A DNA stretch of 8,589 nucleotides from Clostridia bacterium (GTDB lineage: Bacteria > Bacillota_A > Clostridia > Oscillospirales > CAG-272): positions 1 to 8,589 of the forward strand of contig JAFTRT010000193.1 of NCBI GenBank assembly GCA_017462145.1. Direction: 5' to 3'. Below are positions 1-8,588 of the stretch, in pieces. The position numbers and the translations under genes were made by a program. The notes beneath the pieces were generated by a model. It was not told where the DNA came from and did not search any database. It saw only the letters and a list, made by a program, of their open reading frames with translations. How positions within the stretch are numbered: position 1 is the first letter of the stretch; every line of letters begins with the position of its first letter.

Positions 1-975
1 CTTGGATTCTCGGATATCGGTGGCGGACAGAAGGTGGCCCACACAGCGTTGGGGGAGATTCAGCTCCACCGCACGGGTCTTACAGCCAAACCGTTCCTTC
101 ACGGCTCGGATCAGCGTTCGTCCCACACCGCCCAAAAAGCGGTGGCCAAAGCTGTCACTCTCACCCGTACGCTGTTTTGCTCCCACGTACCGTCCATCGG
201 GCAACCGTATGCCCTCGGAAACGGCCACCACCACGTTGGGATGCCGCTGCAAGGCTCGTCCTACATCCTCCAAAAAGTCCTCGATCCGAAAGGGGTGCTC
301 CGGCAGATACACAAAATCCGGCTCGCTTCCTCCCGACAGTCTGCCAAGAGCGGAAGCGGCTGTCAGCCAACCTGCATCCCGCCCCATGACCTCGATCACC
401 GTGACCGAGGGCTTGGTATAAACGGCGCAATCGCAAAGAATCTCCCCCGTCACCGTGGCAACGTATTTGGCCGCCGAGCCAAAACCGGGAGTATGATCGG
501 TTCCTGCCAGATCGTTGTCCACGGTCTTGGGCACACCGATAAAATGCATCGCTTGCCACCCGACACGCCTTGCATATCGGTTGAGCTTGTCCACCGTATC
601 CATGGAATCGTTGCCGCCGATGTACCAAAAGCAGCTGACATCCATGACACAAAGCCGTGCTCGGATCTGCTCGTACATCCCCACGTCCTCAGGCCGCTCG
701 GACAGAGGATCCGGCAAGCGGACACGGCAAGAGCCCAGTGCGGCCGCAGGGGTCAAGGAGAGGCGGCTCAGCCGTTCCTCATTCCTGCAAAAGACCTTGT
801 CCAATCGGGTCGTCCTCCCTTGCAACAAGCCCTCCAAGCCGTTTTTCATGCCCCAAAGGGCACCGATCTCCTCGGAAGAGATCGCTTCTTCGATGATTCC
901 GGACAGGGTCGCATTGATCGCTGCGGTCGGACCTCCGGACTGTCCGACAATTGCATTCTTCTTGAACTTCTCCAT
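1..975 (-). CDS. pfp: PPi-dependent 6-phosphofructokinase, 3' end cut by window edge
   Basis: Phosphorylates fructose 6-phosphate to fructose 1,6-bisphosphate in glycolysis, in the cytoplasm. The first 325 residues are visible; the frame stays open to base 1, and family members of about 400-420 residues suggest some 80-100 are missing. Residues 10-24 hold the N-terminal nucleotide/phosphate loop (GQSGGPTAAINATL). Residues 120-124 read GGNDS, where ATP-dependent enzymes have GGDGS. Residues 149-155 read PKTVDND, with Lys150 in place of the Gly of E. coli PfkA. Asp123 plus Lys150 is the known signature of pyrophosphate rather than ATP use. MGRDAGWL at 197-204 is the substrate-binding motif. ATG at 975 is the only possible start near the motif; an AAGGAG lies at 978-983, only 2 bases away, which is unusually tight. 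Transcribed divergently from sigK. Phosphoryl donor is inferred from the two residues, not proven. Confidence 0.93.
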   Translation of the reverse strand, partial: MEKFKKNAIVGQSGGPTAAINATLSGIIEEAISSEEIGALWGMKNGLEGLLQGRTTRLDKVFCRNEERLSRLSLTPAAALGSCRVRLPDPLSERPEDVGMYEQIRARLCVMDVSCFWYIGGNDSMDTVDKLNRYARRVGWQAMHFIGVPKTVDNDLAGTDHTPGFGSAAKYVATVTGEILCDCAVYTKPSVTVIEVMGRDAGWLTAASALGRLSGGSEPDFVYLPEHPFRIEDFLEDVGRALQRHPNVVVAVSEGIRLPDGRYVGAKQRTGESDSFGHRFLGGVGRTLIRAVKERFGCKTRAVELNLPQRCVGHLLSATDIRESK

Positions 976-1114: not shown

Positions 1115-1813
1115 ATGTTTTCTGCCATCCTTTCTTTCTTCTCTCAATGTTTGCATCTGATCTTGGGTATCTCCACCCCACAGCAATTTCCGCCGCCCCT
1201 CTCCCACAAGGAAGAGGATGCCTGCTTTGCTCAAATGGAGCAAGGCAGTGCCGCCGCACGGGAGAAGCTGATTCTTCACAACCTGCGTCTGGTCTCCCAC
1301 ATCGTGCGCAAATATTACGCCACCGCAAAGAACCAAGAGGATCTGGTGTCCATCGGTACCATGGGGTTGATCAAGGCGGTTGACAGCTTTCACCGTGACA
1401 GCGGCACTCGCTTTGCCACCTATGGTGCCAAGTGTATTCAAAATGAGATTCTAATGTATTTTCGGGCTCAAAAAAAGCTGTCCGCCGAGGTCTCTCTCAA
1501 CGATACCATCGATGTGGATCGAGACGGAAATCCCCTGACCTATATGGATGTGATCGGATCGGATGAAAACTTGGAGGACGAAGTGACTCGCAAGCTCTCC
1601 TCTGCCCGTGCCATGCGTTACATGAAGCTGTTGCTGTCCGATCGGGAGCGGCGCATCCTTACCCTGCGCTACGGTCTCCAAGGAAAGCCGCCCTTGACCC
1701 AAGCCCAAGTCGCAAAGCGTCTGGGCATCTCCCGTTCCTATGTGAGCCGCATTGAAAAGAGCGCACTCACAAAGTTACGGGAGGCTATGACACAGCCTCC
1801 CGTAAACGGTTAA
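1115..1813 (+). CDS. sigK: RNA polymerase sporulation sigma factor SigK (with pro-sequence)
   Basis: Late mother-cell sigma factor that directs RNA polymerase to coat and maturation genes during sporulation. 232 residues. Region 2 spans about 52-121, with [14 protein letters not shown] (55-68), [14 protein letters not shown] (76-89) and [18 protein letters not shown] (101-118). Region 4 spans about 161-225 and includes the helix-turn-helix [20 protein letters not shown] (196-215). The HNLRLVxHIV and [10 protein letters not shown] wording fits SigK better than its close paralogue SigE. Residues 1-20 are hydrophobic and precede the PPPLS motif (26-30). This is where SigK carries a pro-sequence that anchors it to membrane until SpoIVFB cleaves it. 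Start 1115 is chosen because GGAGGT at 1105-1110 sits 4 bases ahead; the in-frame ATG at 1103 would overlap that site, and the frame's much longer upstream extension is antisense to the phosphofructokinase. No skin-type element interrupts it. Its last codons form a hairpin and its stop overlaps that of the next gene. Confidence 0.95.
1775..1805. terminator. Hairpin at the sigK / UPF0210 convergent gene ends, inside sigK coding sequence
   Basis: TTACGGGAGGCT (1775-1786) and AGCCTCCCGTAA (1794-1805) form a perfect 12-bp stem with a 7-base loop. On the plus strand a run of five T follows at 1814-1818, eight bases past the stem. On the minus strand the hairpin begins five bases after the UPF0210 stop and is followed by a short CTTTGTG tract. 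It probably terminates both convergent transcripts, more convincingly as a barrier than as a textbook intrinsic terminator, since neither U-tract is ideal. Confidence 0.6.
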
Positions 1814-3169
1814 TTTTTCAGCGAATGAATGGGTGCGGGAATCCGTCCGCCCCGTGCAATAAACTTCTCGCAGGAATAGGTGCTGATCGGCATGACGGGA
1901 GCATATCCCAACAATCCGCCGAATTCCACCTCGTCTCCCGCCTTTTTCCCGTATGCGGGGATCACTCTCACAGCCGTGGTCTTGGTATTGGCTACACCAA
2001 TAGAAATCTCGTCGGCAATGATACCGCAAAGGGTTGCTTCTGTAGTATCTCCGGGTACGGCGATCATATCCAGTCCCACCGAGCAAACAGCGGTCATCGC
2101 CTCCAGCTTCTCCAAAGACAGTGCACCCACCTTGACGGCATCGATCATGCCTGCATCCTCGGAAACGGGAATAAAAGCACCCGACAAGCCGCCCACATGA
2201 GAGGAGGCCATAACGCCGCCCTTTTTCACAGCGTCGTTCAGCAAAGCCAATGCGGCCGTTGTACCGGGGCCGCCGCAACGCTCCAGACCCATTCCCTCCA
2301 AAATATGTGCCACAGAATCCCCCCACTGCGGGAGTGGGTGCCAAAGAAAGATCCACAATACCAAAGGGAACGCCCAAGCGGTTGGAGGCCTCCGTGGCCA
2401 CCAGCTGTCCCATACGGGTGATCTTGAACGCCGTCTTTTTGACCGTTTCTGCCAATGTGGAGAAATCACAATCCCCTGCTCTGCGGACAGCCGAAGCCAC
2501 CACACCGGGGCCGGAAACTCCTACGTTGATCACCGTCTCGGCCTCACCCACACCGTGGAATGCACCTGCCATAAAGGGGTTGTCCTCGGGAACATTGGCA
2601 AAGACCACCAGCTTGGCACAGCCAATAGAGCGGTCGTCACGGGTCAGATATGCGGTTTGCTTGATAATACGGCCCATCATGGCCACCGCATCCATATTGA
2701 TGCCGGCCTTCGTGGATGCCACGTTGACCGAAGAGCAAACCCGCTCAGTCTCCGACAGCGCCACAGGAATGGATTCGATGAGATTACGGGCGTTATCGGT
2801 AAAGCCCTTTTGCACCAGCGCACCGTAGCCACCGATGAAATTGATGCCCAACGTATGGGCCGCTCTGTCAAGGGTCTGTGCCAGCTTGACGTAATCCTCG
2901 GAGCTGTACCGTCCGCCCACCAGAGAAATGGGGGTCACGGAAACACGCTTATTGATGATCGGAATCCCGTACTGCTTTTCAATATCACAGCCGGTCTGCA
3001 CCAGGTGCTCTGCACTCTTGGTGATCTTATCGTAAATTCGGTCGCAAACCACGTTCACATCATCCGATGCGCAATCGTAAAGAGAGATCCCCATGGTGAT
3101 CGTACGGATATCCAGGTTCTCTTCCTTTATCATATTGATGGTTTCCAGTATGTCCTTCATGTTGAGCAT
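1810..3169 (-). pseudogene. UPF0210 / DUF711 (PFL family) protein, frameshifted
   Basis: Conserved cytoplasmic protein of unknown reaction, annotated as PFL family because its fold is distantly related to pyruvate formate-lyase. The N-terminal part (residues 1-283, e.g. [37 protein letters not shown]) is read from 3169 to about 2321. The C-terminal part ([33 protein letters not shown], ending [10 protein letters not shown]) is read in the next frame down to the TAA at 1812-1810. Removing one base gives an unbroken 452-residue protein of normal family length. Left as it is, the first frame runs on out of frame to 1775 as an unrelated Arg/Gly/Cys-rich tail, giving 464 residues. GGAGGA (3179-3184) lies 9 bases ahead of the ATG. 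It follows the ACT gene by 18 bases on the same strand and is surely co-transcribed. It may be a true pseudogene or a sequencing error. Confidence 0.9.
2319..2324 (-). other. Single-base frameshift site in a homopolymer
   Basis: The plus strand has six C (six G in the gene). With five, the codons after APTPAV read GGG GAT TCT GTG, giving the conserved GDSVA. With six, they read GGG GGA TTC TGT and the frame is lost. This pinpoints the lesion in the UPF0210 gene to residue 283. Homopolymer miscalls and real slippage both produce exactly this pattern. Confidence 0.85.
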
Positions 3170-3668: not shown

Positions 3669-3697
3669 TTGACTGGAATTCCATTTATTGGTAAACT
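3669..3697 (+). promoter_or_regulatory. SigA promoter of the large membrane protein gene
   Basis: TTGACT (3669-3674) and TAAACT (3692-3697) are separated by 17 bases, close to the TTGACA/TATAAT consensus. The start point would be near 3704, about 31 bases before the ATG at 3735. GGGAGG at 3720-3725 is the ribosome binding site, 9 bases ahead of that ATG. This promoter and the minus-strand one point away from each other across about 130 bases that hold no other evident feature. Confidence 0.7.
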
Positions 3698-3734
3698 ATG
3701 AAATTGAAACACCATACATGGGAGGAAGTCAAAC

Positions 3735-6700
3735 ATGAAAGAAATCAAAACCGTTCCCCGCTCTTCGGGGACACATCCGCACAGGCGATGGCTCCTTGGG
3801 GGAATTCTCCTGCTGTTGCTTGCCTGCTTTGCCACCACAGCATCCGCCGCCTCGCTTCGGGAGGAGAATCTGGCTCTTTGCACCAAACGCTCGACAGAGC
3901 TGACGGGGCAGCTGGAGTCCTACCGCACCATGGACGACTCCGTGGGGCAACAGATCTCCGGAAGCGTGACCTCTGCGGTGGTCAAATACCAAAAGCAGCT
4001 CTTGGATCTGCAAACCCATCCCGAGCTTTCGACCCGCTCCTTGGAGAGCGAGATCGATCTTGCCTTTTGGCGAGGGACAACGGCGGGAAAGCTGACTTGG
4101 ATCTATGTGACGAATGCCGCCTCCGCCTCCGGCGAGACAGAAAGCCGAAGCTTTCTGGCCGCCTACGAGGCCTTGATGACTGAGTTGGACGGTGACAGCC
4201 TGCTCTCGGATTCCTCTCCCGATTCCTACGCCTGCCGTCTGAACGTAGCCATCTACTCGGAGCGCATCCGTTCCCTTGCCGAGGACGGCGATTCCCGTAC
4301 CACATCGGCCATTTTAGCAGGAGCGGTCGCCCGGGTACGTGCCATGACCTCGGGTGAGCTGTCGGGAGAGAGCTATCAGGCCGTATGGGAGCAGGCACGC
4401 ACCGACGCCGCCGCACAGCGTCATCGGGATGCACTGTACGGCGACTTTTGTCACTTCTACGAGTCCATTGCTCCCGCCGCCTCTGCGGAAGCGGATGAGA
4501 TCACCTCGCTGTTGTTCCACTGTCTTTCTCACGACACCACGCTGTCACAGATGAACACCTCTCTCAAGGAAGCTGCCTTTTCCCTGTTGGATCGTTATGC
4601 AACGGGCACGCACCGTACCGCCTACATCCTTACGGTAAAAGAAAAGGTCTCTCGTGAAATCGCCTCTGCTTCGGCGAACGGCAGAAGAGCCTGTATTTCC
4701 CCCTTGGGAGATGGCTTTTCCCACGCTTATGCCGTCTCCGAAGCCAAAGATGAGCTGACGCTGACCGCACAAAACAGCGGTCTGCTCCCCTCGGAAACGC
4801 TGACCGCTTTGGTGAGTGAATACGTGGCAGACCGTGGGATTTTCGATCGTTGCACCACGGCAGAAGCGCTTTCCTTTGAGCTGTGGCGTGCCTCTCTGCG
4901 GATCGACTGGCTCCGAGAGACCGAGATGGCCAAGGGTACCGTTAGTCAGATCCTTTCGGGCTTTGATGCACAAGAACTGTTGCAACAAGCCGATGCACTC
5001 CGCACGGCAACTGATCTTCGCATCCTTGGGGTCACCGCCACGGATGAGGCCGCCAAGACCCTTTGCACCGCGATCGTTGCGGAAGGAACTGCGGGGCTGG
5101 CCGCCTTATCATTGGATGCCCATGCCGAACAGTTTCGGCTGACACACGTCAGTGCCATTGAGACCGCCCCTTCGGCACTCACCGTGTCCCACCGTGCGGT
5201 CCTCACCGCTGCTTTGGAGGATTGGGAGCTCCTGTCCACGGAGGTCAAGAACCGTCTGACCGAGGAAGCGGCCAAGCTGAAGGAAAATTACCGCCGTATG
5301 ATCCGCCTCCTGATTGCCGCCTCGGTTCGTTCCGACGAGGCAGAAGCCTACCGCTCCATGGAGGCAGACAAGCTGTACGTCTCCCTGTCTGCCTTGTCTC
5401 ACGCCGATCTGACGGCTTTTCGAAAAGCCGCTGACAGCATCTTGATGCGCTCGGACACCATTGCCGCATTGTTGGACGCCTATGGGCAGATCCTGCAAAA
5501 GACCGACTACAGCCAATATGCCGAGGCAAGGAAAAACGCCCTTCGTCTGGCCACAGAGGCAGGGTGTCTGGCCATTCAAAGCTGTACCTCGGAGGGCGAG
5601 ACCTTACAGGAGGAGCTGGCAACGCTTCTCTCCGACCGTCTGTTGGAGCTCACACGGCAGGATGCCATTGCCCGTATCTATCTTGCGGCAGAGGGCACAG
5701 AGACCGATGAGATCACCGGAGCCATCCGCATTGCCGAGACCCAGATCTTGGCCGCTGTTTCGGAGGACACCGTTCTCTCCTTGGCCAAAAGCTGTATTCT
5801 GACCGTCCGCAAAACGGTTTTGCGGGACAAGGCAGACGGACTGGCTCTGACTGCCGAACAAGCCCTTTCTACTCTCACCTATCTGAGTGATACCGATCGC
5901 TCTCTCTATCTGACCCGTCTCCAAGAAAAGATCGGCACCGCCAAATCCGCTCTTTTGTCGGCGGCCGAAACACCGACGGCCGAATTGGCCTACGCCACGC
6001 TTACCTTAGAATGGGAGGAAATTTGGAAAGAAGCAACGGCCGCCGATCTGCTCCTTTGCAAAACCGACGCCGCCCTGCGCTTGGAAACGATGATTGCAGC
6101 GGCCAAGGCCGAGCTTGCGGCGTTAGAGGACACGGAGGAATCGGTCAAGCAACAGTTCGCCACCGACCTGGAGACCTTACTGACCAATGCTTTGGCCTCG
6201 GTTCATCTGTCTGCTGACACCCAAGGTGTCTCCCAACTTCTGACCAAAACAGGAGAAGAAGCAACCGCCTTGGTCAAGGATGCCCGTCTGTATCGGATTC
6301 GCCTATACCGTGCGGAGCTTCTCACCGAATTGGAGGGGCTGTTTGGGCAGTCCGAGCATTACAGCGAAGCGGCCTACGCCCGTGTGCAAGCCGAGCTGAC
6401 CGCCTTTTCGTTGAGCTTGGAGGCCAGAGAGACCTCCGAGGAGTACGACACGCTGTTCCGCACGGCCAAAGCTCGCCTTGCTTCCATTCCCACCCTGTTA
6501 GAAGATGCCAAGACCGAAGTTTCCGCACTCCTCCAAAGCACCTATGATTCTCTCACCGCATCGTCTGCACTGTATTCCGAGGAGGCCTTGGCAGAACTTA
6601 CCCGTTTGGCCGAGGAAGCCAAAAACGCGATCTCCGCCGTGACGGCTGTTTCTCAACACGGTTTGGTACGGGAGCTTGCCGACCAAGCGTTGGCCGCCAT

Positions 6701-8051
6701 GAAAGCCGTCAAGCGAGATCGTTTGTGCAACGGACAATCCGATCTGTCCGACGTGGGCTATCCTGCCGAGTTTGACCATGCGGTAAACGGCTATTGGGGA
6801 ACGGTGGAAAAGGCAGATGCCATTCCGTCGGGAAGCTCGTTGACCATTACCGAATGTCCGAAAAACAGCGAGGATCTTTACAATAAACTCTCCGTGGCGA
6901 TGAAGCGGGATCTGCTTTTGAACGCCCAAGGCGAGCCTGTCAGCGCATCCTTGGGGCGAAAGCTGAAAAAGGGGGAACTGTTGCTTGCTTTGGACATTCG
7001 CACCGATCTCCCCTCCGCCTCTCTGCCCTACCGTGTGACCATTCTGCTTCCGAATGGCTTTGAGCAGGAGACCTTATTGGGTGTGGTATGCTTCGGAGCA
7101 GGCGGCTCTGCCGAGTTTCTCCCTTGCACCAGAGAGGGAGATCAGTTGATCTTTGAGACCACACATTTCTCCGATTTTTATTTGGTAGCCGAATCCGACC
7201 TGAATTTACTGCCCGCCATCCTACTGGTAAGTCTGCTGATTCTCTGCGAGCTCATTGCGGTGTCATGGCTCTTATATCGCCGCTACCGTCGCAGAAAAAA
7301 TGAAGATGATACCGAGGCAGATGGAGAGCCGCCTCTGCTTCCCTTTGCTGCCGTCGTTCCGTTCTCTCTTTTCTCTTATCCCAAGCTTTTGCAGATCAAG
7401 CCCGAGCACGGCGGAAGCCTACTGATCGTGCTGTCGGGAGCGGCTCTGCTGTTGGGTGCCGCCATTGCGGTGTTGATCCGTCAGGAAGCCGAACGAGAGA
7501 AGAGAAACAAGCAGAACGCAATCGAAAAACAAAAGGCCGCTCACAGCGGCAAAAAAGAACGGCATGCTCTGCCCAACCGCCACACAGCGGCGCTCCCGCC
7601 AAGACGGGCTGATGAATTTATGATGCGAGACAGCACGGAAATGGTCACCGACACCGAGGCGCTTCGGGTCTCGGCAGCGGCCAACATCGCTTTGGCCGAG
7701 GAGGAAACCTTGAACGATGAGCTTTTGTCCACCGCTCGGGAGGGTCGTCCGCCCGAGGACCTGGATCTCCCCCAAGCAGGAGATGCCGCCTTGGAAGAAA
7801 CCGACCGTGAAGAGGAGGAACGGCGCTATGAGCTCAACGTGGATGTACTGGCCCGACATTTTTCCGCAGGGGATTGCGTAACCCCTGAATTGTTGAAGAA
7901 AATGGGCGTGATTCCATCCAATGTGACCCACCTAAAAATCTTGGCACGGGGACGGTTGACCATTCCCTTGCATATCTCTGCGCAGGAATTCAGTTCCGCC
8001 GCCCTCCGTATGATCCGCAAAGCCGGCGGCAAGGCATATAAAATCCGCTGA
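3735..8051 (+). CDS. Large secreted, membrane-anchored helical protein with a C-terminal L15-like domain
   Basis: 1438 residues; the full architecture is not one I recognise by name. Residues 18-38 are a signal peptide (basic HRRW, hydrophobic core, ASA-AS cleavage site). Residues 40-995 are Ala/Leu/Glu-rich and almost wholly helical, built as successive bundles. Two alignable units near the end (about 857-925 and 926-992) each contain a YSE-(A/E)-A motif, like FIVAR-type surface bundles. About 1000-1152 looks beta-rich and ends TTHFSDFYLVAE, a motif common just outside the membrane in clostridial surface proteins. 1157-1181 is a membrane helix followed by RRYRRRK (inside). 1200-1215 is a shorter hydrophobic segment, and 1228-1248 another membrane helix followed by a basic stretch. 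Then comes an acidic linker and, at 1365-1438, a ribosomal L15/L18e-like domain. Three C-terminal passes would place that domain in the cytoplasm; with only two it would be outside. No sortase or S-layer motif. Single gene with its own promoter and terminator. Confidence 0.9.
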   Translation: MKEIKTVPRSSGTHPHRRWLLGGILLLLLACFATTASAASLREENLALCTKRSTELTGQLESYRTMDDSVGQQISGSVTSAVVKYQKQLLDLQTHPELSTRSLESEIDLAFWRGTTAGKLTWIYVTNAASASGETESRSFLAAYEALMTELDGDSLLSDSSPDSYACRLNVAIYSERIRSLAEDGDSRTTSAILAGAVARVRAMTSGELSGESYQAVWEQARTDAAAQRHRDALYGDFCHFYESIAPAASAEADEITSLLFHCLSHDTTLSQMNTSLKEAAFSLLDRYATGTHRTAYILTVKEKVSREIASASANGRRACISPLGDGFSHAYAVSEAKDELTLTAQNSGLLPSETLTALVSEYVADRGIFDRCTTAEALSFELWRASLRIDWLRETEMAKGTVSQILSGFDAQELLQQADALRTATDLRILGVTATDEAAKTLCTAIVAEGTAGLAALSLDAHAEQFRLTHVSAIETAPSALTVSHRAVLTAALEDWELLSTEVKNRLTEEAAKLKENYRRMIRLLIAASVRSDEAEAYRSMEADKLYVSLSALSHADLTAFRKAADSILMRSDTIAALLDAYGQILQKTDYSQYAEARKNALRLATEAGCLAIQSCTSEGETLQEELATLLSDRLLELTRQDAIARIYLAAEGTETDEITGAIRIAETQILAAVSEDTVLSLAKSCILTVRKTVLRDKADGLALTAEQALSTLTYLSDTDRSLYLTRLQEKIGTAKSALLSAAETPTAELAYATLTLEWEEIWKEATAADLLLCKTDAALRLETMIAAAKAELAALEDTEESVKQQFATDLETLLTNALASVHLSADTQGVSQLLTKTGEEATALVKDARLYRIRLYRAELLTELEGLFGQSEHYSEAAYARVQAELTAFSLSLEARETSEEYDTLFRTAKARLASIPTLLEDAKTEVSALLQSTYDSLTASSALYSEEALAELTRLAEEAKNAISAVTAVSQHGLVRELADQALAAMKAVKRDRLCNGQSDLSDVGYPAEFDHAVNGYWGTVEKADAIPSGSSLTITECPKNSEDLYNKLSVAMKRDLLLNAQGEPVSASLGRKLKKGELLLALDIRTDLPSASLPYRVTILLPNGFEQETLLGVVCFGAGGSAEFLPCTREGDQLIFETTHFSDFYLVAESDLNLLPAILLVSLLILCELIAVSWLLYRRYRRRKNEDDTEADGEPPLLPFAAVVPFSLFSYPKLLQIKPEHGGSLLIVLSGAALLLGAAIAVLIRQEAEREKRNKQNAIEKQKAAHSGKKERHALPNRHTAALPPRRADEFMMRDSTEMVTDTEALRVSAAANIALAEEETLNDELLSTAREGRPPEDLDLPQAGDAALEETDREEEERRYELNVDVLARHFSAGDCVTPELLKKMGVIPSNVTHLKILARGRLTIPLHISAQEFSSAALRMIRKAGGKAYKIR
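7827..8048 (+). other. Region encoding the ribosomal protein L15/L18e-like domain
   Basis: Residues 1365-1438 read like the C-terminal half of bacterial ribosomal protein L15. ELNVDVLARHF corresponds to the L15 'vsvd-LN-F' strand, CVTPELLKKMGVI to 'VVTPELL-ENGVI', and KILARGRLTIPLHISAQEFSSAALRMIRKAGG (1401-1432) to the KxLGxGxLxxxLxVxAxxFSxSAxxxIExAGG block. Residues 1401-1431 satisfy the PROSITE L15 pattern as I remember it, including Phe1419, Ser1420, Ala1423, Ile1427 and Gly1431. The N-terminal rRNA-threading half of true L15 is absent, so this is not the ribosomal protein gene but a borrowed domain. What it binds is unknown; RNA or a protein partner at the membrane are both open. Confidence 0.85.
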
Positions 8052-8070
8052 AGGATGCGGGGATGCGTTT

Positions 8071-8102
8071 TTTGGAAACTTTCTTGAAAGAAAGTTTCCA
8101 AA
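8071..8102. repeat. 15-bp perfect inverted repeat after the large gene
   Basis: TTTGGAAACTTTCTT (8071-8085) and its exact reverse complement (8088-8102) flank only GA, so the real loop must open two or more base pairs. It begins 20 bases after the stop of the large membrane-protein gene. It is AT-rich at both ends and lacks a T-run after it on either strand, so it is more likely an mRNA-stabilising hairpin or a dispersed palindromic element than a terminator. Confidence 0.75.
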
Positions 8103-8348: not shown

Positions 8349-8429
8349 GAGCGAGCGCAAGCGAGTCGAACATTTGCGGTCGAGCGGAAGCGAGCGATGC
8401 AAATGTACAAGACCATGTCTTGAGGGATC
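8349..8429 (+). repeat. Structured two-hairpin repeat, left copy
   Basis: A 22-base block (8349-8370: GAGCGAGCGC then AAGCGAGTCGAA) is followed by hairpin A, with stem ACATTTGC/GCAAATGT at 8370-8377 and 8399-8406 and a 21-base loop containing GAGCGGAAGCGAGC. Hairpin B follows, with stem CAAGAC/GTCTTG at 8408-8413 and 8417-8422 and loop CAT, and then GAGGGATC to 8429. A second copy in opposite orientation lies at 8502-8588. Likely a dispersed intergenic element; family not recognised. Confidence 0.65.
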
Positions 8430-8501
8430 CATAAACAGATTTCGTTGTCTTACTTTACACAATGTTACATTTACAAAATAAGATCGCAAAATCCCATCGG
8501 A

Positions 8502-8588
8502 GATCCCATCGGAACACGATGTGTTCCTCGGTTTTGTATCGGCTCGCTTCGCTCCCTCAACAAAACTTCGACTCGCTTACGCTCGTTC
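8502..8588 (-). repeat. Structured two-hairpin repeat, right copy (inverted)
   Basis: Read on the minus strand it follows the same order as the left copy. The opening block (8588-8567) matches at 20 of 22 positions. Hairpin A has stem GTTTTGT/ACAAAAC (8560-8566 with 8531-8537 on the plus strand) and a 22-base loop containing GAGCGAAGCGAGC. Hairpin B has stem GGAACAC/GTGTTCC (8511-8517 and 8521-8527), and GATGGGATC closes the unit. It may continue past the right edge. Stems differ in sequence from the left copy while keeping full pairing. Confidence 0.65.

Follow-up and report, generated by a model that had tools for sequence, protein, structure and literature searches.

A predicted clostridial surface protein with a uL15-type domain at its C-terminus

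Clostridia have large cell-surface proteins with a signal peptide, a long ectodomain and a C-terminal membrane anchor. The ribosomal protein uL15 (L15; gene rplO) has a C-terminal globular domain and an N-terminal arm that binds ribosomal RNA (rRNA). The family to which it belongs, PF00828 (L15/L18e/L27A), is described as one of ribosomal proteins. In the accessible portion of PMC10931766, the single mention of uL15 places it in the spc operon. Here we describe an open reading frame (ORF) in an 8,589-nucleotide stretch from a Clostridia bacterium (contig JAFTRT010000193.1; the whole stretch is referred to as the window). The ORF runs on the forward strand from 3735 to 8051 in a single uninterrupted frame up to its stop codon and encodes a predicted surface protein of 1438 residues with an L15-type C-terminal domain. 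It resembles these large surface proteins of Clostridia in having a signal-like segment, a long Ala/Leu-rich region and a membrane segment with an Arg cluster after it, but differs from them in carrying a ribosome-derived folded domain beyond the anchor. We propose, with a probability of about one half, that this is a membrane-anchored surface protein whose remodelled L15 domain hangs beneath the membrane on a flexible linker and serves for docking.

The L15-type tail

An earlier note on this DNA, made from the letters without database searches, had claimed that residues 1365–1438 (7827–8048) match the C-terminal half of L15 and end in its hallmark FSxxAxxxIxxxGG. Both parts of the claim are borne out. 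PF00828 matches the full ORF protein at 45.4 bits (cut-off 21.5, E-value 1.1e-11) over positions 1–71 of its 72, placing the uL15/L18e-type domain at residues 1366–1434 (7830–8036, forward strand), and matches the isolated tail at 51.6 bits (E-value 1.3e-13). The hallmark ending is present (FSSAALRMIRKAGG), and the closest PDB chain by sequence is 7nhn_O, a 50S ribosomal protein L15 (E-value 3.2e-9). An AlphaFold model built from two fused tails alone, that of the ORF protein and that of the homologue P0001 described below, has bacterial uL15 as its top PDB matches; the predicted fold is of L15 type, with modest confidence.

The two fused tails were aligned with 14 rplO proteins from public records. 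A basic, Gly-rich N-terminal arm is found in all 14 and in neither fused protein. The ORF protein falls short of the rplO equivalog TIGR01071 (34.9 bits against a cut-off of 77.95) and of the archaeal L18e equivalog NF003079 (19.2 against 85). Its tail is 22–45% identical to the rplO C-domains, which are 31–70% identical among themselves. There are 30 C-domain sites at which at least 10 of the 14 rplO proteins agree. The same 16 of these (11 of them hydrophobic or Gly) are retained in both fused tails, and the other 14 are changed in both; among the changed positions are those at 1404–1405, 1410–1415, 1428–1429 and 1435. The changes include (i) G-N to A-R ahead of the invariant Gly1406, (ii) Lys, present in 10 of the 14 rplO proteins, to Ile or Val at 1410, to Pro at 1411 and to Ser at 1415 and (iii) E-A to (R/K)-K ahead of AGG. 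The fused tails also share 13 residues that none of the 14 has, and in a tree they group together, fully supported, at the end of a long branch. The tail is like uL15 in the fold, length, spacing, core residues and ending of the C-terminal globular domain, but it caps a 1438-residue membrane protein. Judged by its missing arm, the missed rplO cut-off, the 14 changed sites and the 13 residues confined to the fused tails, the ORF protein is not a ribosomal protein.

The surroundings of the gene also differ from those of rplO. In all eight annotated rplO loci secY lies downstream; five of the other six have no feature listed there, and in the unannotated sixth (MT835508) the ORF after rplO reads as SecY by eye. 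The ORF described here has no such place beside secY in an spc operon: the other genes found in the window are of the pyrophosphate-type phosphofructokinase, SigK, DUF711 and ACT types, and no other ribosomal gene was found within it. As a side observation, MT835508 (positions 1–10204) is an UNVERIFIED record named 'Bacteriophage sp.' that looks mislabelled, because it contains an ordinary bacterial ribosomal-protein operon and its L15 is closest, within the plasmid collection, to that of Subdoligranulum (70.7%).

A ribosome or RNA tether is possible, although we consider it doubtful: the L15-type domain would bind rRNA, 50S subunits or assembly intermediates and so keep them at the membrane, beneath the surface protein. 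The L15 fold would suit such a tether, the long flexible linker would provide reach and, over 73 residues, the C-domain of the ORF protein has a net charge of +7, more than any of the 14 rplO C-domains (−1 to +3). The C-domain of P0001, however, is at +3, inside that range, so that the fused tails have no extra positive charge in common, and charge is no guide to the partner. The missing arm, the three replaced Lys sites and the A-R before the invariant Gly also speak against the tether, and the ribosomal site is presumably filled by the cell's own uL15. Of the two roles that the earlier note had offered, a link between the envelope and RNA or ribosomes and reuse of the fold as a protein adaptor, the adaptor fits somewhat better than ribosome binding, because the arm is gone and several Lys sites are replaced. 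Loss of the arm together with the changed conserved positions favours a new partner, which seems more likely to be a protein than rRNA.

Conservation of the fusion

P0001 is the sole independent full-length homologue found. It has 1411 residues, is 47% identical to the ORF protein and is colinear with it from the N-terminal segment through the tail, with the same architecture and a tail that matches PF00828 at 47.6 bits. The two tails are 74% identical over 73 residues; in 60-column windows, identity is 18–33% across the linker and 78% in the final window. A second record (P0002; 'hypothetical protein IJX13_00790, partial', 524 residues, from a metagenome-assembled genome of a Clostridia bacterium) is 100% identical to the ORF protein after rounding, with one differing residue noticed. 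Encoded on a contig of 1,573 bases, it spans the linker and ends within the tail. This record supplies the taxonomic setting of the protein. The earlier note had named three outcomes that would undo its claim, namely no significant L15 profile score, a predicted fold unlike that of L15 and a tail unique to this protein. The opposite was found for each, as the profile score is significant, the best PDB matches of the model are bacterial uL15 and P0001 keeps the fusion with a well-conserved tail.

Two alternatives bear on the origin of the fusion. An assembly chimera or frame error could have joined two unrelated genes, and a frame change interrupts the adjacent DUF711 gene, so that the record may carry at least one such defect. 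This explanation is refuted by P0001, which is colinear end to end, and is further contradicted by the passage of P0002 through the linker into the tail. Alternatively, recombination could have added a piece of rplO to the gene's 3′ end, where it persists with little function. Such a remnant would account for a domain that represents no more of L15 than its C-terminal half and that closes the ORF, but the higher identity of the tail than of the whole protein or the linker points to selection on it, and we regard this explanation as disfavoured and very unlikely. The architecture shared with P0001 and the contrast between tail and linker thus indicate that the fusion is genuine and not an assembly artefact and that the tail is under selection.

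The protein searches covered relatives that share exact five-residue words. At lengths of 790–2516 residues, with the top 7,986 candidates scored, they yielded P0001 only, and at 330–1050 residues (6,321 candidates) P0002 only. A protein search with the tail alone gave no match, which is a false negative from which nothing is concluded, as local phmmer with this stretch as query gives P0001 112.7 bits. Scans of genome and viral contigs with narrow exact peptide or DNA patterns found no relative, nor did a similarly narrow scan of viral contigs with an rplO query; such patterns do not imply absence. When both tails were compared with a plasmid collection by tblastn (E-values up to 10), the ORF tail matched 32 records; among the 20 matches listed, 18 lie under an L15 gene and two are unannotated there. 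The P0001 tail gave 24 matches, 17 under rplO, six unannotated and one under an ABC transporter gene (E-value 5). The full ORF protein had no match in this collection at an E-value of 0.01, a weak null because the tail alone does match. In a phage collection there are eight matches to the tail. One is MT835508, the stretch of bacterial ribosomal-protein genes mentioned above; two unannotated records that bear the name Staphylococcus phage have an E-value of 1e-4.

Among the papers listed in literature searches, no title or abstract opening concerns an L15 domain in a membrane protein, although differently worded work may escape such searches, and L15 is not mentioned in the accessible portion of PMC2672003. 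The finding is thus a known domain in an architecture for which these searches yielded no description. Such tails may occur in other Clostridia as well, under what we take to be the NCBI name 'uL15 family ribosomal protein', for which the literature gave no match.

Protein architecture and gene context

The segments below were assigned by hydropathy rather than by a dedicated signal-peptide or topology predictor, and all features of the ORF lie on the forward strand. A signal-peptide-like hydrophobic segment occupies residues 18–42 (3786–3860), as in P0001, and ∼1,115 residues separate it from the first strong membrane segment. The outer region (residues 40–1156; 3852–7202) is Ala/Leu-rich with a net charge of −61, and a profile search of the ORF protein found no Pfam family above cut-off in it. 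Its membrane-distal part (residues 61–330; 3915–4724) is better conserved, with 55–78% identity to P0001 in 60-column windows. In the portion modelled with AlphaFold, from residue 839 onward, the outer region is predicted to be mostly helical up to about residue 990 and to form a membrane-proximal alpha/beta domain at residues ∼1013–1153 (6771–7193), where the mean predicted local distance difference test score (pLDDT) is 47–81 per ten-residue block. For the model that includes this domain, Foldseek gives weak matches to ankyrin ZU5/UPA chains (E-values 0.08–0.25, root-mean-square deviations 7–9), which are not significant and come without a range within the model.

Membrane segment 1 (residues 1158–1180; 7206–7274) is followed by RRYRRRK, and membrane segment 2 (residues 1228–1249; 7416–7481) by a Lys/Arg-rich stretch. 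Between them lies a Pro-rich, semi-hydrophobic segment (PPLLPFAAVVPFSLFSYPKLL; residues 1199–1219; 7329–7391), a possible re-entrant or third membrane segment that is under both hydropathy thresholds applied and is preserved in P0001 as PPALPFSAFLAPTSLLS. With a signal-like segment and C-terminal membrane segments in both proteins, each is predicted to be a membrane-anchored surface protein. The linker (residues 1251–1362; 7485–7820) is poorly conserved and mostly without confident structure; its charge passes from basic (residues 1250–1295, net +5) to acidic (1296–1362, net −16). The layout that the earlier note had proposed, a signal peptide, about 1100 extracellular residues and two or three membrane segments, agrees with the signal-like segment, the length of the outer region and the two strong segments, whereas a third segment is below threshold.

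A sigma-70-type promoter-like site that matches the consensus (TTGACT-17-TAAACT, with TG ahead of the second hexamer) lies at 3669–3697 of the forward strand; four such sites were found against 0.4 expected in 401 bases scanned on both strands. A ribosome-binding site, GGGAGGA (3720–3726, forward strand), has the ATG 8 bases downstream. A perfect 15-bp inverted repeat is located shortly 3′ of the stop codon (8071–8102), and terminator-like sites are predicted at 8044–8061, 8048–8075 and 8511–8527 (three against 0.8 expected). Farther on, at 8349–8588, is an imperfect inverted repeat with 47-nucleotide arms (8349–8395 and 8542–8588) that are 74% complementary and rich in GCGAGC/GCTCGC.

Upstream, a pyrophosphate-type phosphofructokinase gene (1–975, reverse strand; NF010675 at 355 bits, cut-off 273) runs past the start of the window. 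A gene for a sporulation sigma factor of the SigK type follows at 1109–1813 on the forward strand; it exceeds the cut-off of NF004471 (266 bits against 252) but is under that of TIGR02846 (250.2 against 298.65), and fits a spore-former lineage. The DUF711 gene (1775–3169, reverse strand) is split in two frames, with the change near 2320–2340. One frame matches roughly the first two thirds of the DUF711 profile and another the remainder, so that either the gene is broken or the assembly is in error.

Side of the membrane and proposed role

The Arg cluster after segment 1 and the net basic stretch after segment 2 would, by the positive-inside rule, both lie inside the cell. From this charge pattern the tail is likely to be cytoplasmic, and this is the weakest link of our reading. 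The count of strong segments gives the opposite answer, since exactly two are present besides the N-terminal one in both the ORF protein and P0001, and after a cleaved signal peptide two crossings would leave the tail outside as part of the envelope. We consider an outside tail unlikely given the charge pattern, and we know of no L15-type fold that is exported. The Pro-rich stretch, if re-entrant or a third crossing, would reconcile the charge pattern with the segment count. The earlier note had placed the tail as a tether under the membrane; fusion to a large membrane-anchored protein stands; the cytoplasmic side is inferred, as the evidence is hydropathy with a third segment below thresholds.

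Several observations weigh against the reading we propose. With a cleaved signal peptide and only the two strong segments, the tail would be outside, and the third segment is weak. The loop between the membrane segments carries a charge of only +1 in the ORF protein and +4 in P0001. Mean pLDDT is just 64.9 in the tail model, and the tail is poorly formed in a 600-residue AlphaFold model. The evidence for conservation comes from one independent homologue. Finally, net basic tails would equally suit RNA binding.

Under the docking proposal, the ORF protein would be exported and anchored in the membrane at the cell surface. Its long outer region, largely helical and conserved at the far end, would lead through the alpha/beta domain near the membrane to the membrane segments. 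Inside the cell, a flexible linker of ∼110 residues would bear the domain that stems from the C-terminal half of uL15; this domain keeps the predicted L15 fold, has no N-terminal arm and is altered at many ribosomally conserved positions. This domain would then dock a cytoplasmic partner and so tie it to the envelope protein.

Annotation by PF00828 alone could call such a protein ribosomal, which the comparisons made here do not support. If the tail binds a protein, it would be a clear example of a ribosomal domain that has become an adaptor at the membrane. If it binds ribosomes, the envelope protein would have a ribosome contact borrowed from the ribosome itself. A bolder and rather unlikely extension is that a family of Clostridia surface proteins has the captured domain beneath the membrane and uses it to recruit ribosomes, 50S precursors or RNA to a defined place in the envelope; if so, contact outside the cell would be linked to local translation or export.
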